Virus record (IMG/VR): IMGVR_UViG_3300046028_000173
Location: 1 to 34,472 of that record
Length of the DNA stretch: 34,472 nt
Reading direction: 5' to 3' (one strand)
DNA from: a virus
In this document: positions 9,289 to 21,504 of the stretch, in pieces
How the letters are laid out: the number at the start of each line of letters is the position of its first letter
Numbering within the stretch: the first letter of the stretch is position 1
Made by a program: the position numbers and the translations under genes
The notes under the pieces: model-generated
Seen by the model: only the letters and a program-made list of their open reading frames with translations
Databases searched by the model: none
Told to the model about the DNA's origin: nothing

Positions 9289-9806
9289 ACCTCGTAGTAG
9301 TTTGTCTTTCGCTCGTTCTCAAAAGCGGTAATTACTCTTAGGTTGCTAGGAACATGCAGGCCACTAACAATTTTCCCATGTAATGGAATTATATGGTCAA
9401 CGTGCCATTTTTCGCCACTTTCTTTAGTTCGCATGGCGGCAAGTTGATAGTAACAGTTTATTTTCAATAAATCAAAATCTGTCAACCACTTGGGAGTTCT
9501 GTTCTTTTTGCCCAATTGCCGTCTAATTTGATTGGCAGTATATGTTGGTCTGTTCTTCAGTTTGTATTCTGATGCGTATGACCTAGTAATATTTCTATTC
9601 TTTGCCCGCCACAGTTGAGTATTTGCCTTACGTTCTTCCTTTTTTTCAACAGGAATACTTTGGAAATACTTGGCGCAACCTTCAATACGGCAGGTTTTGC
9701 ATTGATATTGCAGGCCATCTTTATTTGACTTATTCTTTTGAAAGTCAGATAAAAGTTTATCAACCTTGCATTTTGAGCATTTTTTCAAATCAAACACCTG
9801 AGACAA
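9285..9806 (-). CDS. HNH endonuclease between TerL and portal
   Basis: This 173-aa protein has two N-terminal CxxC pairs (C10/C13 and C36/C39), probably a zinc finger, and a C-terminal HNH nuclease motif: WHVDHIIPL (H135, D137, H138), then N155 and N164 in VPSNLRVITAFENERKTN. The middle is basic and helical. It overlaps TerL by 17 bases and the portal gene by an ATGA, so it is woven into the packaging operon. Two readings are possible: a free-standing homing endonuclease, or an HNH protein that aids the terminase, as known for several phages with HNH genes beside terminase. Sequence alone does not decide. Confidence 0.88.
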   Translation of the reverse strand: MSQVFDLKKCSKCKVDKLLSDFQKNKSNKDGLQYQCKTCRIEGCAKYFQSIPVEKKEERKANTQLWRAKNRNITRSYASEYKLKNRPTYTANQIRRQLGKKNRTPKWLTDFDLLKINCYYQLAAMRTKESGEKWHVDHIIPLHGKIVSGLHVPSNLRVITAFENERKTNYYEV

Positions 9807-11049
9807 TATCTATGGGCTGCCACTCATCATCCTCATCTTCCTGAAAATAAGATGTAACAGCTAGTTGATCGACATAGGAAAGAGCGTCCGGCAAATCATC
9901 GTGAACTCCCTGTGCGGGAAACATTAGAAGTTGGTCAACAAAATCATCCCAATTTTCTTCCGAATTAAGCGTGATTCTGCCATGTTCAAACCTTCCTTGC
10001 AATGCCCAGATTATTCTATCTGCTTTTTTCCTATTCCCATGCGTTAAATCAATAATATGGGCATAGATGTTACTTTTTCTCATTAAGTCGCTTAAATAGG
10101 GCAAAACAGCGTTCTTCAGTGCTCCCCTCTCAATCCCGATACTCAAAGGCTTGTAGTCCCGAATAGCCATCAAGATGTTCACAGCAGTCGTCCGAATATC
10201 CCATCTTCCGTGGATGATCTTCTCAACAAACCACTTCCCATCCTCTGTTACATACACTACGCAGATAGCGGACTCATCCAATCTCTTCTTAGCGTTGCCC
10301 GCCTGTTTAGCAACTTCCTCGAACCCCGCTAGGTCAACAGAGATATAGAACGACCCCTTATTAGGTCTTTCACCAAACTTAATCCATTCTTCTTTAAAAA
10401 CGTCCGATCCCGCATTGGAGAAGGAAGCCATAAACTCTTGTTTAAAAGCAAAGGTACTCAGGGTCTTCTTAGCACTTTCTATCTCAGATGGGTCGATCAA
10501 AGGGTTATCAGCAGTGGTAAAGTGCCAACTCTTCCAATCAGAGTCCTCTCCACTCTCACCTAGCTTAAAGGTGTCGTGAAACCAGTTCCTTCCCTTTGGA
10601 GTGCCAATAAACAAGGCTCTACCCTTCTTGTCTGACAGAGAAGCCCGTATAACCTGTTCCCAAGCCTCTGGTTTAATGTCGGCTACCTCGTCTAGTACAG
10701 CGTAAGTTAAAGAGACTCCACGTAGCGTATCAGGTCTATCCGCACCACGGACGTAGATACGGGCGCCATTGATTAGGGTTATATCCAAATTGTTAACGTG
10801 ACTGTTTTGGATCACATCACGGCCAAGGTCTAAAAGCAAATCCCAAATAATTTGCCGGCTTTGCCCCATGGTTGGGGAAACATACAGTACAGCAGAGCCA
10901 GGGGGGCAACGCAGTCCTTCAATCAACAACGTGATGGCAGCCATCCTCGACTTGCCACAGCGCCGGCCAGCTGCGACAACCTTGAACCTTGCCGTATCCT
11001 TGAACACTTGTTGTTGCCAAGGGAGAAGGGAAAAGTTAAGGTCAGCCAT
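9790..11049 (-). CDS. terL: Terminase large subunit
   Basis: This 419-aa protein has both terminase domains. ATPase: Walker A-like VAAGRRCGKS (K33), Walker B YAVLDEVADI (D120, E121) and the coupling motif FIGTPKG (147-153). RNase H-like nuclease: D239 in SVDLAG, E308 in IGIERG and D384/D385 in HDDLPDAL. The protein drives DNA into the prohead and cuts the concatemer. It starts inside the last codons of the small-subunit gene (8-base overlap). The length is usual for podovirus and headful-type large subunits. All key residues are present. Confidence 0.95.
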   Translation of the reverse strand: MADLNFSLLPWQQQVFKDTARFKVVAAGRRCGKSRMAAITLLIEGLRCPPGSAVLYVSPTMGQSRQIIWDLLLDLGRDVIQNSHVNNLDITLINGARIYVRGADRPDTLRGVSLTYAVLDEVADIKPEAWEQVIRASLSDKKGRALFIGTPKGRNWFHDTFKLGESGEDSDWKSWHFTTADNPLIDPSEIESAKKTLSTFAFKQEFMASFSNAGSDVFKEEWIKFGERPNKGSFYISVDLAGFEEVAKQAGNAKKRLDESAICVVYVTEDGKWFVEKIIHGRWDIRTTAVNILMAIRDYKPLSIGIERGALKNAVLPYLSDLMRKSNIYAHIIDLTHGNRKKADRIIWALQGRFEHGRITLNSEENWDDFVDQLLMFPAQGVHDDLPDALSYVDQLAVTSYFQEDEDDEWQPIDIVSGV

Positions 11050-11437
11050 ACTTTGCCTCTACATCTTCTGGGTCGTTGGGGTCGATTGTGTCAATAATGG
11101 TTGGACTTTCTCCCAAGCCAGTGATATTGATCGTAACTGCTGACCTCTGGCTCTTGTCTTTCTCGAACATACTTATGGGCAGTGTGCGGTCAATACACAT
11201 CTTGAGCGCTGCCATCTGGCCTGGGTGGTCATCGTTGAGCGCGATGTCAATCACCTTCTGCGCCACATCCTTGCCGCCAGACCGGATCATCAGCTCTTTA
11301 AGTTCCTTTAGGCGCTGTTGATCCGTCTTGGGCAATACCTTCGGTGGGTTGTTTGCATAACGCTGAATGGTCATCTTCACCGAACCCTTGGGGCGGCCAG
11401 GCTTCTTCTTCTCTTCAGTTGCAGGGGTGAATTCCAC
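11042..11437 (-). CDS. terS: Terminase small subunit (candidate)
   Basis: The product is 131 aa from the GTG at 11435-11437, preferred because AAAGGA lies about 6-7 bases upstream. A TTG at 11512 would add 25 residues but has no visible ribosome site. The N-terminus carries EEKKKPGRPKGSVKM, a basic DNA-binding-type stretch. The body has a helical segment RLKELKELMIRSGGKDVAQK and DDHPGQMAALKMCIDRTLPI, and the tail is acidic. This layout (GRPKG leader, helical oligomer, C-terminal tail) and the 8-base overlap with TerL fit a small terminase subunit that recognises phage DNA. No pac site was identified. Confidence 0.8.
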   Translation of the reverse strand: MEFTPATEEKKKPGRPKGSVKMTIQRYANNPPKVLPKTDQQRLKELKELMIRSGGKDVAQKVIDIALNDDHPGQMAALKMCIDRTLPISMFEKDKSQRSAVTINITGLGESPTIIDTIDPNDPEDVEAKYG

Positions 11438-11861
11438 TTTTTTCCTTTCGGGAAGATGGGTTTGGCCGATTGTAGTCCATTTCGCTTTTTCGGTGGGTGG
11501 GGGGTACCACAAATTTCACAGGCGACCGCTCACCCCCTCCCCCCCATGCAAACCGACCAAAACCAAGGGTTTTCCCGATTCTACTTTATACAACGACCAT
11601 TATGTTAAGTTGACTTAGGGTTATCCACAGATATTTTAATACTTTGTTGGTACTCGCCAAGTTATCAACAGGAAACTGTGGACAAGTTTAACAACACCCT
11701 TGTGGATAACTGGGTTCGGGTCGGGGAAGCTGGTCGGGAGAAAAAAGGGAAAGAGGCGGATGGTGCATTCCACGCATACCTGACCACCAAACTGCATACA
11801 AAACTGTATACACTTTTGTGTACCAAAAATTTGTGAGGAATAATCAAACCATCCAACCAGT
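11438..11861. other. Main non-coding region upstream of terminase genes
   Basis: These ~420 bases hold no convincing gene. They contain a C-run (11533-11547), the DnaA-box cluster (11621-11709), and a small perfect hairpin TACAC-TTTT-GTGTA (11809-11822). The leftward packaging and head operon must be transcribed through or from here. A TATAAA on the minus strand (11585-11590) is a possible -10, but no good -35 is at the right spacing. Confidence 0.6.
11621..11709. other. Cluster of four DnaA boxes: putative replication origin
   Basis: TTATCCACA at 11621-11629 is a perfect DnaA box, and TGTGGATAA at 11701-11709 is the same in reverse. Between them lie TTATCAACA (11662-11670, one mismatch) and TGTGGACAA (11677-11685, reverse, one mismatch). 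The order is two forward then two reverse within 89 bp. An AT-rich stretch (11630-11645) lies beside the first box. The boxes are seen; origin function or DnaA-controlled transcription is inferred. Confidence 0.7.
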
Positions 11862-12122: not shown

Positions 12123-12210
12123 AACAACCCCCAAAAAAAAGGGTACTCACGCCAAACGGCGCTTTCCCCGAATGTGCAGCAATAAATGGCAACTGCAAGC
12201 ACGCCATCAT
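12109..12210 (-). CDS. Possible 33-aa peptide gene
   Basis: An ATG at 12208-12210 overlaps the RusA-like gene stop as ATGA, the coupling used throughout this genome, and the frame runs 33 codons to the TAG at 12109-12111. The peptide MMACLQLPFIAAHSGKAPFG... has no recognisable feature. It overlaps the next start by 14 bases. An alternative is that this is simply an 84-base spacer with a small GCC/GGC hairpin and a T8 run. Confidence 0.25.
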   Translation of the reverse strand: MMACLQLPFIAAHSGKAPFGVSTLFFGGCYARR

Positions 12211-12554
12211 GTTATCACCTCAATCTCAACGGCGTACTCGCCGGCCTTGCCTGACCTCTGAAAATACTGCCAGTCCACCAGACTACTGCCATCATCCACG
12301 CCAAGCCAATCAGCCACACCATCCCTGACCGCCTTAAACCCAGACTGCAAGTTATCGCCATCAAGCCTTCTTGGTGCAATCCTCGTCAACACCACAGTGA
12401 CCGGCAAAACCTCCACACCAAAAGACTGAGCCACAGCTGCCAAACTCAACCGAGTCCTCGTTCTCTGATCCCTCGTCAACTTCGCTTTAGCCGCCCAATG
12501 CAATCTCATGTTCGCCACACTCACAATTTTCATGTTCATCCTGACCTCAATCAT
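12207..12554 (-). CDS. rusA: RusA-like Holliday junction resolvase
   Basis: This 115-aa protein matches the RusA family pattern: LDGDNLQSGFKAVRDGVADW gives D67, N68, K74 and D78, followed by the acidic pair D87/D88 in GVDDG. RusA enzymes act as dimers and cut four-way DNA junctions, here probably to clear recombination intermediates and branched concatemers before packaging. The length is close to the family norm of about 120 aa. The ATG at 12552-12554 has GGAG about 8 bases upstream. It lies between the repeat array and the terminase region, within the replication part of the leftward block. Confidence 0.85.
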   Translation of the reverse strand: MIEVRMNMKIVSVANMRLHWAAKAKLTRDQRTRTRLSLAAVAQSFGVEVLPVTVVLTRIAPRRLDGDNLQSGFKAVRDGVADWLGVDDGSSLVDWQYFQRSGKAGEYAVEIEVIT

Positions 12555-12598
12555 CAGTCAACTCCAATCTATCAAAACCACCTACCCAAAGTTCGGAT

Positions 12599-12887
12599 GT
12601 ACCGAACCCCTTTATGTACCGAACCTGGGTGTCCTATAAGGACACCCGGTACGTTTCGGTACACCGAAGGTGGGGTCACCCGGTACATTTCGGTACGTTT
12701 CGGTACATATCGGTACACGGTTCGGTACATTTGCCATGTACCGATGTACCGAACTCGGTACATTTCGGTACACTTCGGTACATTTGGCTTGTAACAAAGT
12801 TACCATTTCGGTACGTTTCGGTACAATTCCATTGTAACTTTGTTTCATACTGGCTCATTTGGCTCTACTTTCGGTACAGTTCGGTAC
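12599..12887. repeat. Array of 18 CGGTAC/GTACCG repeats with 10-bp phasing (iteron-like)
   Basis: CGGTAC starts at 12647, 12657, 12681, 12691, 12701, 12711, 12723, 12756, 12766, 12776, 12809, 12819, 12872 and 12882; GTACCG starts at 12599, 12616, 12738 and 12746. Nine successive pairs are exactly 10 bp apart, one helical turn, with consensus TTTCGGTAC(A/G). The array covers the last codons of the primase-helicase gene and the 290-base gap before the RusA-like gene. It looks like a cooperative protein-binding array such as plasmid iterons. It is not a CRISPR: there are no spacers and the unit is too short. Confidence 0.9.
12627..12647. repeat. Perfect 9-bp hairpin inside the repeat array
   Basis: GGGTGTCCT (12627-12635), loop ATA, then AGGACACCC (12639-12647). 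It is flanked by GTACCG at 12616 and CGGTAC at 12647, so the whole block is nearly two-fold symmetric. Neither strand has a T-run after it, so it is not an ordinary terminator. Cruciform, primase recognition or strand-initiation roles are possible (inference). Confidence 0.8.
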
Positions 12888-14893
12888 ATACCAGCATTCT
12901 CAAAAACCATGGATTTCTTGGTCAAAGCATCCAAACACTCCTTGAATCTGCGTGAATTCAGACCATGGCTCTTGGCGCTTTCACGCCATTCATCGTAATC
13001 CACCATGGCAGCAAACCCTTCAATTCCATCACTGGTTCGCTTGGCTTCGATAGACACCAAAGAGTTAAGTGCAATGCGTTGATTACCCGATAAAAGCGCC
13101 CGTTTTTGGATATTACCCATCAGGCCGGAGATGTCCACCGCCGTAAGGTATGCACCCCGAACTGGCGCTCCATTCTTATCTTGGATCGGCAAATCAACCT
13201 GAGTGATCTGAAAGTTCTTTGGTGCAGGCATCTCTGCATCTTTCATCTTCTTGGACTCAAAGGCTATGGTCTTTGTGCCCGCATCCAACTGGCAACGATA
13301 TTCCGCATCCAGTGCGCCCTTCAATGCCGTTGATCCCCGACTGCGATCCTTATCTGCCACGCCTGAGTGGTGCACCACCAGAACACAGCACTTCCATGGT
13401 TGCCGAAGATAAACATCCAGATGCTGAATAAACGCATTCATGTCCTGAGTGGAGTTCTCATCACCACCATGGTTACGCGCTAGAGTGTCAATGATGATCA
13501 TGCTTGGCACAGTCCCAGCTTGCGCTGACAGCTCCTTGATGCTCTCTGCCACCACTGCCGCCTCGGTTGCATCGTACAACTGCGCCGCACGATGGCTTTT
13601 GTACAATGGCGCACCATCAAGGCTTTGCCCATTGCCCAACTGCCACGCCTTGAACCGCCGAGCCAAGCCATTATGCCCTTCGCCGGCAATATAGAACACC
13701 GAGCCTTGCTTGACCTCATGGCCATGCCATGGACGGCCAGTGGCTACACAGCAAGCTATGTCGATGCTGACAAATGATTTACCACCGCCTGGATCACCGA
13801 ACACTTGTGCCAAGCTGTCGCTCTCAATGTAGTCATCCACAATCCAGTTAATCTGGCTAAGTTGCAAGTTATCTGCCCGAGTAAACTCAAACGCCAGTTT
13901 GTCTTTCATTGGCCCAGCTACGCGCTCAATCTGCTCTTTGACCGCATCTAGTCCTTGCAGGCAGTGCAGGTCATTGAAGTCTGTTGGTTTGTTGTCCACC
14001 ATGTCAGACTCCCCAAATGATGGGTACACAATCTCCCCAAAGACCAGAGCTGCCGCAGCCCTGCCCTTGGCAACACCAGGGTTGCCCTCGGTGAACTGGT
14101 CATTATCTGCGCCAATGATGATCTTGGAGCCTGGGAACATCTCCTTCGCGCTCTTGGCTACCTTGGCTAAGTTCCCACAATCAAACGCCACCAAGACTGT
14201 GTAGTCCGTTGCCTCATGGATCGATGCACATGTGGCAAAACCCTCACCAATGAACACAATCTTCCTATTGCCACGCAACTCATAAAAACCACCCTCAATC
14301 TTGCCGCCCTTCAAGAACCGCTTGTTGCCATCTGCATCAATGGTCTGATAACTCAGGATTTCGCCCGCTTGGTTGATCACAGGCACAACCAGTCTGCCTG
14401 CACGATCAATCTTGATCCCATGCGCTTGAATGTGCTTCCTGACAAGGTATGGATGGTCATCACTGGCATCTGCATACGTCCCAACCTCATCCTCTGCACG
14501 TTCGGCAGCCACCGCCTGCGAAGCCAGCCTGTCAGCTTCCTTCTTGGCCTTGACATCTGCTATCCACTTATCATGCTCAAAGCGCTCAGTAAACGACATT
14601 TGCCTGCCAGTATCTGCCACCCACTTGGCCTCAAACACTGGCTCTTTCCAACAGCCTGCAATGCCAACCGGCACTTTGCCACTGGTGTGCAAGATGTACC
14701 AACCATCCAATGCACCCTTCTTAGAAGAGATATGAGCCACCCTGTGTATCTCACCATCTGCCACAATCTGGTCTTTGATCACAAGTCCCGCAGCCTCGCA
14801 ATGACGGCGAAACCCCTCTTCTGGGTTGATCAGGTCTTGGCTCTCTGTGGCGGCCGCGAAGCCGTTGGGGAATATTGTTGTTAGGTTAGTCAT
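12845..14893 (-). CDS. Primase-helicase (TOPRIM plus RepA-like ATPase)
   Basis: This 682-aa protein joins two modules. Residues ~140-325 form a TOPRIM primase-type domain, with E217 in VFIGEGFATC and D263/D265 in IIGADND. Residues ~345-600 form a RecA-like ATPase of the RepA/AAA_25 kind, with Walker A GDPGGGKS (366-373), Walker B MIIIDT (D469) and VVHHSG (507-511). This is the phage's main replication protein, priming and unwinding DNA. I see no N-terminal zinc finger. The last ~14 codons run into the CGGTAC array (MYRTVPK), so coding and repeat sequence overlap. The start overlaps the methyltransferase stop by 4 bases. Confidence 0.9.
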   Translation of the reverse strand: MTNLTTIFPNGFAAATESQDLINPEEGFRRHCEAAGLVIKDQIVADGEIHRVAHISSKKGALDGWYILHTSGKVPVGIAGCWKEPVFEAKWVADTGRQMSFTERFEHDKWIADVKAKKEADRLASQAVAAERAEDEVGTYADASDDHPYLVRKHIQAHGIKIDRAGRLVVPVINQAGEILSYQTIDADGNKRFLKGGKIEGGFYELRGNRKIVFIGEGFATCASIHEATDYTVLVAFDCGNLAKVAKSAKEMFPGSKIIIGADNDQFTEGNPGVAKGRAAAALVFGEIVYPSFGESDMVDNKPTDFNDLHCLQGLDAVKEQIERVAGPMKDKLAFEFTRADNLQLSQINWIVDDYIESDSLAQVFGDPGGGKSFVSIDIACCVATGRPWHGHEVKQGSVFYIAGEGHNGLARRFKAWQLGNGQSLDGAPLYKSHRAAQLYDATEAAVVAESIKELSAQAGTVPSMIIIDTLARNHGGDENSTQDMNAFIQHLDVYLRQPWKCCVLVVHHSGVADKDRSRGSTALKGALDAEYRCQLDAGTKTIAFESKKMKDAEMPAPKNFQITQVDLPIQDKNGAPVRGAYLTAVDISGLMGNIQKRALLSGNQRIALNSLVSIEAKRTSDGIEGFAAMVDYDEWRESAKSHGLNSRRFKECLDALTKKSMVFENAGMYRTVPKVEPNEPV

Positions 14894-17354: not shown

Positions 17355-18101
17355 ATGGCCTTCGATCTCTCATCCATCTCCAAAACCAAACGTGTTCGCG
17401 CCCCCAAGATTGTTGTGGTTGGCCAAGGCAAGATTGGCAAGACAACCTTTGCTGCCATGGCGCCTAACGCCATTGGCATCCTGACCGAAGACGGCGCTGA
17501 CGCTGTTGACGCAAACGCATTCCCTTTGGCGGCAAGTCTGCCCGAGGTGTACGCCGCCATTGACACATTGATCAACCAAACGCATGACTTTCAGACACTT
17601 TTCATTGACAGTCTGGATTGGCTTGAACCCATGATCCAAGAGTATGTGTGCAAGCAGAACAATTGGAAGAACATTGAAGCACCAGGCTTCGGTAAGGGCT
17701 ACGTGGCCGCCGCTGAAGAGTGGCGTAACCTTTTGTCTGGCTTAGAAGTCCTGCGCTCTGCCAAGGGCATGGGCATCATCCTGATTGCTCACGACAAGAT
17801 CAAGCGCATTGAAGACCCACTGACCGAAGGCTATGACAGCCATGTCCTCAAACTGCACGACAAGGCCGCCGGTCTAGTGCAAGAGTGGGCTGATGTCATT
17901 GGCTACGCAGGCTACCGCATCTTCACAAGCAAAACCGATGCAGGGTTCTCTAAGAAAGAAACCAAGGCCACGACAACTGGTGAGCGCATCTTGCACGTTG
18001 AACCCCATCCGGCTCACTGCGGTGGTAACCGCTTTGGCCTTCAGAATATGCCGCTTGACTGGACGGCATTCCAAGCAGCGCTCACAGTAGCGCAGTCTTG
18101 A
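17355..18101 (+). CDS. Sak4-like RecA-fold ATPase (AAA_24 type)
   Basis: This 248-aa protein has Walker A GQGKIGKT (23-30), Walker B TLFIDSLDW (81-89) and a following GIILIAHDKIKR segment, typical of phage Sak4/AAA_24 nucleotide-binding proteins. These are short RecA/Rad51-like enzymes that promote single-strand annealing or exchange, working with a phage SSB. The next genes are a DUF669 protein and a RecB/Cas4-like nuclease, which together make a full phage recombination set. The ATPase motifs are intact. Confidence 0.87.
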   Translation: MAFDLSSISKTKRVRAPKIVVVGQGKIGKTTFAAMAPNAIGILTEDGADAVDANAFPLAASLPEVYAAIDTLINQTHDFQTLFIDSLDWLEPMIQEYVCKQNNWKNIEAPGFGKGYVAAAEEWRNLLSGLEVLRSAKGMGIILIAHDKIKRIEDPLTEGYDSHVLKLHDKAAGLVQEWADVIGYAGYRIFTSKTDAGFSKKETKATTTGERILHVEPHPAHCGGNRFGLQNMPLDWTAFQAALTVAQS

Positions 18102-18140
18102 TCACACCAGTTCGTAACTTAACTTTTTAGGAAATTTATC

Positions 18141-18656
18141 ATGGCTCAGTTTAATTTTGACGCATCTCAAGTCGTCCCCCAACAGTCTTCAGGCCCACTG
18201 CCTGCGGGCGTTTATCTGGCTCACATTGTTGAGTCTGATGTTCAGCCATTGAAGTCCGGCAACGGCGAAGGCTTGAAACTCACCTTTGAGGTCATTGATG
18301 GTCAGTTCAAAGGCCGCAAGGTTTATGAGAACCTGAACATTCGCCACACCAGTGAAGACACTCAGCGCATTGCACAAAGCCAGTTGTCTGCGCTTTGCCA
18401 CGCCGTGAACGTGATCAAGTTGATGGATACCGCTGCCCTGCACTTCAAGCCAGTTCGCATCAATGTGACTGTGCGCGAGGCAGTTGGTCAGTACAAGGCC
18501 AGTAACAACATCAAGGGCTATGAGGCCGCAGGCGGTGGGATTAGCGCACCAGCTGCTGCACCAACCCCTGCGCCTGTGGCTGAAGCCCCTGCATGGCCTA
18601 CCGCCGAGCAAGAAGCCGCCAAGTCTAAAACACCCGCATGGGCTAAGAAAGGCTGA
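18141..18656 (+). CDS. DUF669 single-stranded DNA-binding protein
   Basis: This 171-aa protein starts MAQFNFDASQVVPQQSSGPL and contains PAGVYLAHIVESDVQPLKSG and LKLTFEVIDGQFKGRKVYEN, the hallmark of DUF669 proteins, which function as phage SSBs. The N-terminal ~130 residues form the beta-rich DNA-binding part. Then comes an Ala/Pro linker (APAAAPTPAPVAEAPAWP) and a short basic end rather than the acidic tip of bacterial SSB. AGGAA precedes the ATG. The place between the Sak4-like ATPase and the nuclease is the standard partner arrangement. Confidence 0.87.
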   Translation: MAQFNFDASQVVPQQSSGPLPAGVYLAHIVESDVQPLKSGNGEGLKLTFEVIDGQFKGRKVYENLNIRHTSEDTQRIAQSQLSALCHAVNVIKLMDTAALHFKPVRINVTVREAVGQYKASNNIKGYEAAGGGISAPAAAPTPAPVAEAPAWPTAEQEAAKSKTPAWAKKG

Positions 18657-18657
18657 C

Positions 18658-19746
18658 ATGGCCTTACTTCCACAATCAGTTACTGATCCTGTGGCCGATG
18701 CCATCTTTGCCCACTACAAGGCAAAGTTTGGCGCGGAAACCCAGCGCCCTTACCTTGGCGCCTCTGCCATTGGCAAGCCTTGCCTGCGCCAGCACTGGTA
18801 TTCATTTCGGTGGTCTAAGCCTGCGCAGTTCTCTGGCCGCCTGTACCGAGTGTTTCAGTCTGGCCACCTTCAGGAGCCAAGGGTCTATGCTGACTTGTCT
18901 AGCATTGGTTGCACTGTCTACCAACTTAACCCTGCCACGGGCAAACAGTGGTCATTCACCGAACCCGCAACTGGCCACCATTTTCAAGGCAATGCAGACG
19001 GCATCATCACTGGCCTACCGCAGGCGCCCAAGTCTCCGCACTTGTTGGAGATCAAGACCGCATCTGACAAGATGTTTAAAGAAATGCAGAAATCTGGCGT
19101 AAAGAAGGCCAAGCCCGAACACTACGCGCAGATGCAAATATACATGAAGTGGAGCATTGATCAGTTTGGGGAAGATGGCTGTCAACGTGCGCTGTACTTT
19201 GTGGTCAACAAAGACAATGACGACATCTACACCGAGCGCTTAGAGTACGACAAGTGCGAAGCGCAGGCCATCATCAACAAGGCCATGGCGGTGATCACTG
19301 CGCCCGAGCCACCAGTTGGAGTTTCTACCGACCCTACTTGGTTTGAGTGCAAGTTCTGTGATTACCAGGCGATCTGTCACGGCACAGACGTTCCTGCGCC
19401 AACGTGCCGTTCATGCGTTCATGCCACGCCTGAACTGGATGGCAATGCAGTTTGGTCATGCGCTTCCCATACCACAGTTTTGTCAGAAAAAATGCAGCGC
19501 AAGGGTTGTAATGATCACCGCTTTATCCCTATTTTGCTTTCCAAAACAGGCCATCCAGTTGATCTTGATCAAAATGATAATGTGGTTTACAAGACGCCAG
19601 AAGGCAAACAGTTTGTCAATGGCGACCCAGACAAGAATCCCGATCACATCAGCAGTGCTGAAATTCACGCCTGTGCAGACAAGACCGCCTTGGTGGACGA
19701 GTTTGCCCTTGATCTGAGAAAACAACATAATGCAAGGTTTGTATGA
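18658..19746 (+). CDS. PD-(D/E)XK exonuclease, Cas4/RecB-like with Fe-S type cysteines
   Basis: The start is the ATG at 18658, one base after the SSB stop. The product is 362 aa. The nuclease core is D114 (NADGIITG) and E131-x-K133 (LLEIKTAS), with H70 and E73 upstream. One early Cys (C42 in KPCLRQHW) and three later ones (C231, C234, C240 in ECKFCDYQAIC) match the 1+3 pattern of iron-sulphur nucleases such as Cas4 and AddB. A further CRSC follows at 250-253, and the ~110-residue tail may be a separate domain. It likely resects DNA ends for Sak4-mediated annealing. Confidence 0.88.
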   Translation: MALLPQSVTDPVADAIFAHYKAKFGAETQRPYLGASAIGKPCLRQHWYSFRWSKPAQFSGRLYRVFQSGHLQEPRVYADLSSIGCTVYQLNPATGKQWSFTEPATGHHFQGNADGIITGLPQAPKSPHLLEIKTASDKMFKEMQKSGVKKAKPEHYAQMQIYMKWSIDQFGEDGCQRALYFVVNKDNDDIYTERLEYDKCEAQAIINKAMAVITAPEPPVGVSTDPTWFECKFCDYQAICHGTDVPAPTCRSCVHATPELDGNAVWSCASHTTVLSEKMQRKGCNDHRFIPILLSKTGHPVDLDQNDNVVYKTPEGKQFVNGDPDKNPDHISSAEIHACADKTALVDEFALDLRKQHNARFV

Positions 19747-19901
19747 CCACTCCACCAATTGACCAAATTACCTTGCGTGACTTCTTTGCCGCAGCTGCCT
19801 TAACTGGTTTGCTTGCAAGTTGTGACCGCAATACTGCTGTAGAAAACGCTTACGTCATGGCTGACAAGATGCTTGAGGAGCGCCAACGTGATCCTGCGTG
19901 A
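19743..19901 (+). CDS. Small protein (52 aa) between nuclease and helicase
   Basis: A frame from the ATG at 19743 (ATGA overlap with the nuclease stop) to the TGA at 19899-19901 gives 52 aa: MTTPPIDQITLRDFFAAAAL ... MADKMLEERQRDPA. It has an Ala-rich helix and one Cys and is not clearly a membrane protein. The RDFFAAAALTGLLA segment resembles short host and phage proteins of unknown role. It overlaps the helicase start by 14 bases and carries its ribosome site (GAGGAG). Confidence 0.72.
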   Translation: MTTPPIDQITLRDFFAAAALTGLLASCDRNTAVENAYVMADKMLEERQRDPA

Positions 19902-21504
19902 GTATCAGTCTCGCGCAGTCACAGACCTGTTTGCTTGGTGGACAAAGCATCAAGAGGATCACGACATTCCTCTTTTGGTGCTACCCACCGCCGCAGGCAA
20001 GTCGGTGATCTGCGCTGAGATTGTGCGCCAGATGTGGGAGCAGTGGCCACTTTTCCAACCTAGAACTGTGGTGTTAGTTCCATCCAAGGAACTGGCCGAG
20101 CAGAATGCGGCCAAATTGAGGGCGCTGTTACCTCACACTATCAGCGTGGGTTATGTCAGCGCAAGCCTAGGCGCCAAAAAGTACAACGCTGATGTGATTG
20201 TGGCCACCATTGGCAGCATTCACAAGGCCGCGCACTTGCTTGGCAACATCAAGGCCGTGGTGATTGATGAGGCTCATCTGGTGAGCCAGAAGGCAGGGGA
20301 TGCAGGGATGTACCGCACCTTCTTGTCTAATCTTGGTGAAATATGCAAATTTAGGACGGTTGGCATGACGGCCACGCCTTTTAGGGGTAATGGCGTTTGG
20401 CTGACCGATGGTGATGAGCCACTCTTTACTGGCATTGCCAGCAGAGTCTCTATGCGTGAACTACTTAGTGCCAAGTTCATTGCGCCACTTGTCCCGCCTA
20501 CCAAACATATTGAAACCCGCATTGACGCAAGCCATGTTGGCATCTCTAACGGCGACTACAAGGTTGGCGAACTATCCCGAGAGGTTGAGAAATACCTAGC
20601 CAAAGTGGCTGTAGAAGCCACCAGAATCGCCTCAGAGCGCAAGAAATGGATTGCCTTTACACCGAGTGTCGCCAACGCTGAAAGCCTGTCTGACAAGCTA
20701 AATAGGCGCGGCATTGTGAGTGCCGTTGTGTGTGGCGAAACCCCCAAGCAAGAGCGCGAAGACCTGATTCGTCAGTTTAAGGAACATCAGATTCACTGCT
20801 TGGTAACTGTCTTGGCGCTCTCAGTTGGCTTTGATGTGCCAGACGTAGACTGCATTGTTTGGTGCAGGCCTACCAAGTCGCCAGTGCTTTATGTGCAGGG
20901 CATGGGCCGAGGCACTCGCATTGCAGACGGCAAGACAGATTGCCTGGTGCTTGACTTTACTGACACAGTTGAGCGCTTGGGGCCAGTGGATACCATCCAA
21001 GGCAGGACTAAAAAGAGGTCAGGCCCTCAAGAGGCGCCCTACAGCATCTGCCCAGATTGCGGAGAGCGCAACGCACCAGCTGCTCTTATCTGCATTCATT
21101 GCCATGGCCAAATACGTGAGGAAGAAGAGAAGCCATTGGATGCCAAGGTTTCATTGGCAGCGCTTTTGTCTAGTGCAAGTGAAATTGGCGAACTAATTTG
21201 GCATGATGTGACCAGAGTTGACTACGCTATTCACAGAAAAGAAGGCAAACCAGACTCTTTAAGGGTTGATTACTACTCTGGCCTGCTTCGCTGTGCCAGT
21301 GAGTGGGTTTGCTTTGATCACCATGGCTATGCCAAAGAAAAGGCTTACCAGTGGTGGTCTAGAAGAAACCCTAATGGCATCCAACCAAATAACACGTTTG
21401 TGGCATTTGGGTTGAACAAACAACTGTCATCACCAAGACGCATTGCAACCCGTAGAAACGGAAAATACACAGAGGTAAAACATTATGAATTTGATAGAAC
21501 TTAA
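19888..21504 (+). CDS. SF2 DEAH-box helicase with C-terminal zinc ribbon
   Basis: The start chosen is the GTG at 19888, 7 bases after GAGGAG; a TTG at 19873 would lie within that ribosome site. The product is 538 aa. It shows motif I LPTAAGKS (K38), DEAH (127-130), motif III TAT (161-163) and motif VI QGMGRGTR (337-344). A C4 zinc ribbon (CPDC ... CIHC, residues 388-405) follows, with a C-terminal domain of ~130 residues that I cannot name. Such phage enzymes unwind or remodel forks and D-loops. Its location after the nuclease fits replication/recombination. Confidence 0.9.
   Translation: MILREYQSRAVTDLFAWWTKHQEDHDIPLLVLPTAAGKSVICAEIVRQMWEQWPLFQPRTVVLVPSKELAEQNAAKLRALLPHTISVGYVSASLGAKKYNADVIVATIGSIHKAAHLLGNIKAVVIDEAHLVSQKAGDAGMYRTFLSNLGEICKFRTVGMTATPFRGNGVWLTDGDEPLFTGIASRVSMRELLSAKFIAPLVPPTKHIETRIDASHVGISNGDYKVGELSREVEKYLAKVAVEATRIASERKKWIAFTPSVANAESLSDKLNRRGIVSAVVCGETPKQEREDLIRQFKEHQIHCLVTVLALSVGFDVPDVDCIVWCRPTKSPVLYVQGMGRGTRIADGKTDCLVLDFTDTVERLGPVDTIQGRTKKRSGPQEAPYSICPDCGERNAPAALICIHCHGQIREEEEKPLDAKVSLAALLSSASEIGELIWHDVTRVDYAIHRKEGKPDSLRVDYYSGLLRCASEWVCFDHHGYAKEKAYQWWSRRNPNGIQPNNTFVAFGLNKQLSSPRRIATRRNGKYTEVKHYEFDRT

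Follow-up and report, generated by a model that had tools for sequence, protein, structure and literature searches.

A DnaA-box cluster at fixed spacing from a putative Xer site, conserved with the replication module of a group of tailed phages

Why would a tailed phage carry a tight cluster of DnaA boxes next to its terminase genes? The window that we analysed is the whole of a 34,472-nucleotide viral record (IMGVR_UViG_3300046028_000173). It is a circular map of about 34,345 bp whose ends overlap by 127 bp, which we take to be a size typical of an assembler k-mer. Four DnaA boxes lie within 89 bp, between genes and upstream of both the putative terS and terL. An earlier note described two perfect boxes that enclose two boxes with one mismatch each, upstream of the terminase genes, and a check of the letters found their coordinates, strands, and order to be exact. 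As the note also said, no DNA polymerase is visible: we identified none among the window proteins that we scanned. The note suggested that host DnaA is recruited to a phage origin or, alternatively, that DnaA controls the packaging genes.

When we scanned the whole record, boxes 1 and 4 were the only perfect matches to TTATNCACA, and boxes with one mismatch were not enriched across the window (29 observed versus 37.6 expected), so what stands out is their clustering. Among 2,000 simulated circles (order-1 Markov), none had at least four boxes within 89 bp with at least two of them perfect, and six had at least four boxes of any quality in that span. The GC skew does not switch at the boxes; it tracks the strand of the genes, and so it neither supports nor refutes an origin at this location.

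The boxes have a neighbor. A 28-bp sequence, separated by exactly 10 bp from the outermost box (which starts at 11621), has the layout of a recombination site for XerC and XerD (an xrs), with two 11-bp arms around a 6-bp centre (XerC arm ACTTTATACAA, centre CGACCA, and XerD arm TTATGTTAAGT). Using a PSSM that we built from 12 Burkholderiales dif sites, this is the best dif-like site on either strand of the window (score of 20.9; the next best, elsewhere, scores 13.6). It is identical to Burkholderiales dif at 20 of 28 positions, and to E. coli dif and to psi at 16 positions each; an unbroken CCATTATGTTAA is common to the window's site and psi. (The psi sequence was located inside a DNA minicircle that is printed in PMC8340030, and the cer sequence was verified in plasmids.) The XerC arm was not part of our search pattern, and it begins with ACTT like Burkholderiales dif (ACTTC in some relatives), instead of GGTG as in E. 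coli. Table 1 lists these features and the nearby genes.

Table 1. Features of the window around the DnaA boxes
Feature	Position	Strand	Comment
Large terminase subunit TerL	9790-11049	-	
Putative small terminase TerS	11042-11512	-	Assignment rests on position; uncertain start codon; first gene past the element
Partial palindrome GGGTTTTCCC / GGGAAAACCC, XerC side	11567-11576	.	In many relatives, not all
Putative XerCD-type recombination site (xrs), 28 bp, 11-6-11	11583-11610	+	Best dif-PSSM match; conserved in relatives
DnaA box 1, TTATCCACA, perfect	11621-11629	+	10 bp from the XerD arm; 10-bp spacing fixed among relatives
DnaA box 2, TTATCAACA, one mismatch	11662-11670	+	TTATCCACA or TTATGCACA in relatives
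DnaA box 3, TTGTCCACA, one mismatch	11677-11685	-	TTRTCCACA in relatives
DnaA box 4, TTATCCACA, perfect	11701-11709	-	From sequence match and alignment of relatives
Protein of 115 aa, RusA-like only in its motif (LDGDNL...D...DD), without an HMM match	12207-12554	-	Assignment inferred; position near the element kept in relatives
Iteron array, about 12 copies of (A)TGTACCGAA(A), 10-bp units on both strands	12597-12891	.	Overlaps the 3' end of the primase gene
Primase-helicase (Toprim and RepA-like AAA_25)	12845-14893	-	Hallmark of the module to which the element belongs
Other genes of the replication/recombination module: Sak4-like annealing protein, SSB-like protein, Cas4-type exonuclease, helicase	17355-21504	+	

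The boxes and the Xer-like site are conserved together. A search for the first three boxes at the window's spacing matched 26 viral contigs. All of the distinct matches that we aligned also had box 4 and a further motif, and neither of these was in the pattern. Read from the side of the boxes, the further motif is ACTTWACATAA-TGGWCR-TTGTATRAAGT; reversed, it is ACTTYATACAA-YGWCCA-TTATGTTAAGT, which is dif-like with an 11-6-11 arrangement. A second scan for the element matched at least 120 contigs, and we gathered 126 distinct sequences. The element, including the positions of the boxes, is thus conserved at fixed spacing in more than 100 viral contigs, and the boxes and the Xer site stay together in lineages that are merely 52-65% alike. 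Because of this conservation, and given the simulations, the probability that the cluster arose by chance is close to nil.

To quantify the conservation, we used 29 non-redundant elements from loci that were identified by their primase and hence were not selected for having the element. The alignment was anchored on the best dif-like match in each locus, which favours the arms and not the boxes. The information content was 1.96 bits for the XerD arm, 1.70 bits for the XerC arm, 1.42 bits for the centre, 1.49-1.84 bits for the boxes, 0.91-1.06 bits for the gaps, and 0.46-0.65 bits for the flanks. Known xrs likewise have two 11-bp arms around a centre of 6-8 bp, with the XerD arm conserved above the XerC arm and with the centre least conserved, and a site with a 6-bp centre (28 bp in total) could also recombine in an FtsK-dependent manner (PMC11724359). 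The window's site and its relatives have both this layout and this ranking of arms and centre.

The spacing between the boxes and the XerD arm is also constrained. If we let it vary from 2 to 32 bp, then 50 of about 99 distinct matches had the same 10-bp gap, and each of the other spacings accounted for 1-6 matches. From the centre of the box to the centre of the arm is about 20 bp, or two helical turns, so both proteins would be expected to sit on the same face of the DNA. The best reading of the boxes and the Xer-like site is that they form one composite nucleoprotein site of about 130 bp (11583-11709). DnaA boxes, xrs, and iterons are each known singly. We did not find the phased combination of DnaA boxes with an Xer site in the literature that we searched, and BLAST of the element against annotated phage and plasmid records gave no match. 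In three cultured phages whose primases are distant (PB15, 1N2-2, and CRP-406), there is neither a box cluster nor a dif-like site.

Which genes does the element travel with? In the window, it is flanked by TerL and the putative TerS on one side and by a 90-aa protein, the 115-aa RusA-like protein, and the primase-helicase on the other. Starting from relatives of the primase with at least 1.8 kb of sequence downstream, we found the element in 68 of 70 loci, and the remaining two have degraded variants: in L309 the box cluster has diverged, and in L308 the Xer core is degraded. (L286 at first seemed to have lost the element, but this contig ends before the site.) Starting instead from relatives of TerL (86-100% identical) with at least 3 kb upstream, the element was present in both of the loci that have the primase and in none of the 35 that do not. 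Three primase-less relatives that we sampled have genes for initiators that are O-like, DnaD-like, or primosomal. The earlier note had reasoned that its model would be refuted if close relatives had lost the boxes. Relatives that are close in TerL did lose them, but only where the replication module had been swapped.

These comparisons also bear on whether the element is a promoter, operator, or pac/cos signal for the terminase genes, with DnaA as a regulator. The element is always close to terS, and in loci of the window's type it is directly upstream of it. However, among the 70 primase-seeded loci, 14 have a TerL of the window's type and 55 have an unrelated one (the two sets of TerL align at 24.7% identity over 73 amino acids, E = 0.019). 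An operator or pac site should be conserved with the terminase and should have a fixed side and orientation; instead, relatives have the element in one orientation or the other, and either before or after terS. Also, 46 of 51 TerL relatives with at least 1 kb upstream lack the element, yet nearly all of them retain a run of G upstream of terS. Because the element adjoins unrelated terminases in both orientations and is tied to the primase, it is a member of the replication module and not a terminase operator. This disfavours the note's suggestion that DnaA controls the packaging genes: a role as a terminase promoter is unlikely, and a terminase signal of any of these kinds seems quite improbable.

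The G-run (11533-11545 in the window; complement GGGGGGGAGGGGG) is retained by nearly all of the TerL relatives, whether or not they have the element, and it could be a pac/cos or promoter element in its own right. Primase-less TerL relatives (L008-L081) have arrays of palindromes that resemble the sites of host regulators, in shuffled combinations, about 280 bp upstream of the G-run. In 13.5 kb of these arrays, as compared to 405 kb elsewhere, there were 32 versus 1 LexA-type sites (CTGT-N8-ACAG), 16 versus 0 Fur-like sites (GAGAATCATTC), 47 versus 1 of GGGTWAACCC, 8 versus 0 of GTTAT-N4..6-ATAAC, and 13 versus 0 of CTTAACATAAC. The arrays possibly sense the state of the host or act as decoys. 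A contig from a betaproteobacterial bin (L108), with a TerL that is 80% identical and without the DnaA-Xer element, has LexA-like palindromes (TACTGTATATCCGTACA) upstream of the gene that precedes terS. Many elements have a GGGWWAACCC-type palindrome on their XerC side (11567-11576 in the window), and it recurs in relatives that lack the element.

The chief rival to the composite site is that the boxes are a DnaA-dependent origin proper: DnaA would oligomerise on the boxes, melt the 32-bp AT-rich gap, and load the helicase, and the Xer-like site would be a separate device. The tight four-box cluster exceeds chance and occurs nowhere else in the genome, its linkage to the replication module is strict, sampled relatives without it have initiators of the O or DnaD type, and the gap is 66% AT. 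Nevertheless, 66% is not strikingly AT-rich, the gap is poorly conserved (0.91 bits), there is no skew switch, and the boxes are phased with the Xer site. Clusters of TTATCCACA in both orientations are typical of bacterial oriC as well, but here there is no oriC gene context, the AT content is moderate, and there is a phased Xer-like site.

Furthermore, there is a likelier origin about 1 kb away (in the window's lineage). The iteron array adjoins the primase-helicase gene and has the form expected of an iteron replicon, with tandem repeats beside a replication gene that are candidate sites for binding an initiator. An array of this kind lies downstream of the primase in every one of the 28 sequences that we examined, although the unit has sometimes diverged. 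(Within the window's array there is also a central GTGTCCTTATAGGACAC hairpin.) Distant lineages (L242-L245) have other iteron units (CTAATGCGGAA, GTAAACCGGTA, and GTAAAGCGGTA) with DnaA boxes interspersed, and the DnaA-Xer element is still present about 1.2 kb from this iteron region and its second group of boxes. This is what we would expect if a phage protein recognises the variable iterons and host proteins recognise the constant DnaA-Xer site. So, the earlier note's idea of an origin is partly supported: recruitment of host DnaA is plausible, as the element belongs to the replication module, but the boxes by themselves are probably not the origin. We consider an origin at the boxes to be a real possibility, if an unlikely one.

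Could the composite site instead be the attachment site of an IMEX-like phage, which would use XerCD to integrate into the host's dif, with the DnaA boxes as modulators of integration or excision? Known IMEX phages have no integrase of their own, and their attP sites resemble dif (PMC5357621; PMC4246890). Similarly, we found no integrase among the proteins that we scanned, and the match to Burkholderiales dif at 20 of 28 positions fits with this idea. The only bin that contains a relative is represented by one betaproteobacterial contig, whose order we take to be Burkholderiales, and the dif of that order is ACTTCGYATAA-TGTATA-TTATGTTAAAT. As the host is inferred from this one contig and from the type of dif, the specificities of the host's DnaA and XerCD are assumed. 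The phage sites share the arms of this dif and the length of its centre, but their centre is YGWCCA instead of TGTATA, the XerC arm ends in TACAA instead of TATAA, and they are phage-borne and beside DnaA boxes. A lone TTATGTTAA in the host bin is not a dif.

An integrated form was not found, whether by the hybrid pattern in viral contigs or among 399 genomes of the order. Hybrids of the phage XerD arm with the host XerC arm beside DnaA boxes were absent from all of the viral contigs (exact pattern), and a generic scan for hybrid junctions gave unrelated contigs, with no DnaA boxes nearby in any of the at least 120 matches listed. None of the 399 genomes contains the element and one contains the primase, in a distant form (45%), although the true hosts may be unsampled. 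Also, in contrast to the attP of CTXphi and VGJphi, which likewise are dif-like sites in integrase-less phages, this site is carried by a tailed dsDNA phage and has a conserved non-dif centre and phased DnaA boxes. Overall, an attP site is improbable. Two viral contigs (L510 and L514) contain dif-like sites with centres of the TGTCCA/TGGACA type and a host-type XerC arm, with no DnaA boxes nearby; these are perhaps other phage Xer sites.

The boxes might also be a decoy (similar to datA or DBC) that titrates host DnaA and blocks initiation by the host, in which case the 28-bp site would be something else. A cluster of consensus boxes in phage DNA would reach a high copy number. On the other hand, titration does not need fixed phasing, so the strictly fixed spacing over large divergence, in phase with the 28-bp site, counts against a decoy. 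With so few boxes per genome, we dropped titration by sheer number of boxes, and we consider any decoy to be very improbable.

If the boxes and the Xer-like site do act as one, then the closest known systems are psi from pSC101 and cer from ColE1, and the element may work like these sites. They have a similar core of 28-30 bp (XerC arm, centre, XerD arm) with host DNA-binding proteins at a fixed distance, as we predict here; the run of bases shared with psi was described above, and the ACAA end of the XerC arm is shared with cer. However, the accessory sites of psi and cer bind ArgR or ArcA and adjoin the XerC arm. In the phage, which is itself a difference, the conserved partners are DnaA boxes on the side of the XerD arm. 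The element is not a member of the cer/psi family because its partner sites are next to the opposite arm and probably bind a different protein. The P1 oriR with loxP/Cre and the pSC101 origin show that iterons, DnaA boxes, and a site for site-specific resolution can occur together in one replicon. The phage differs from P1 in that a host-Xer-type site replaces loxP/Cre, and the boxes are with the resolution site, apart from the iterons.

We propose that these phages have a plasmid-like replicon, made up of the iteron origin, the primase-helicase, the RusA-like protein, the recombination genes, and the DnaA-Xer site. The genome would circularise inside the host and be replicated by the host's polymerase from the iterons next to the primase, and homologous recombination would then produce multimers. 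Host DnaA on the boxes and host XerC and XerD on the 28-bp site would assemble jointly, and XerC/XerD would recombine duplicate copies to return the multimers to unit circles. DnaA would thereby stand in for the ArgR or ArcA (with PepA) of cer and psi, and it may additionally aid helicase loading. The resolution reaction would be tied to replication or to the status of DnaA. Both the binding of these proteins and the reactions are predicted from sequence, and we hold the proposal of DnaA-organised, replication-coupled multimer reduction with about equal parts confidence and doubt. Two points argue against the composite site: the boxes adjoin the XerD arm, whereas the accessory sequences of cer and psi adjoin the XerC arm, and dimer resolution may be unnecessary for a lytic phage (lysogeny or a plasmid state is a supposition, and we identified no repressor or partition gene among the proteins that we scanned).

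We know of no case of DnaA as an accessory protein for Xer recombination, nor did we find one in the literature that we searched. More tentatively, host DnaA may be an architectural or directionality partner of XerCD in a large group of tailed phages, so that resolution (or another Xer reaction) would be coupled to the status of initiation, by a mode of control distinct from both FtsK and ArgR/ArcA-PepA. This broader idea is speculative and rather unlikely to hold in full. If XerCD do act on the site, then an abundant group of uncultured phages relies, at a single phased site, on two host systems for chromosome maintenance (DnaA and XerCD), and there would be a third mode of control for Xer recombination. 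Nature has already performed the swap: near-identical packaging genes are found with the element and the primase-helicase/iteron replicon, or without both, which makes the phage's dependence on host DnaA directly testable. Our results suggest that these phages may manage their circular genomes in the style of plasmids.
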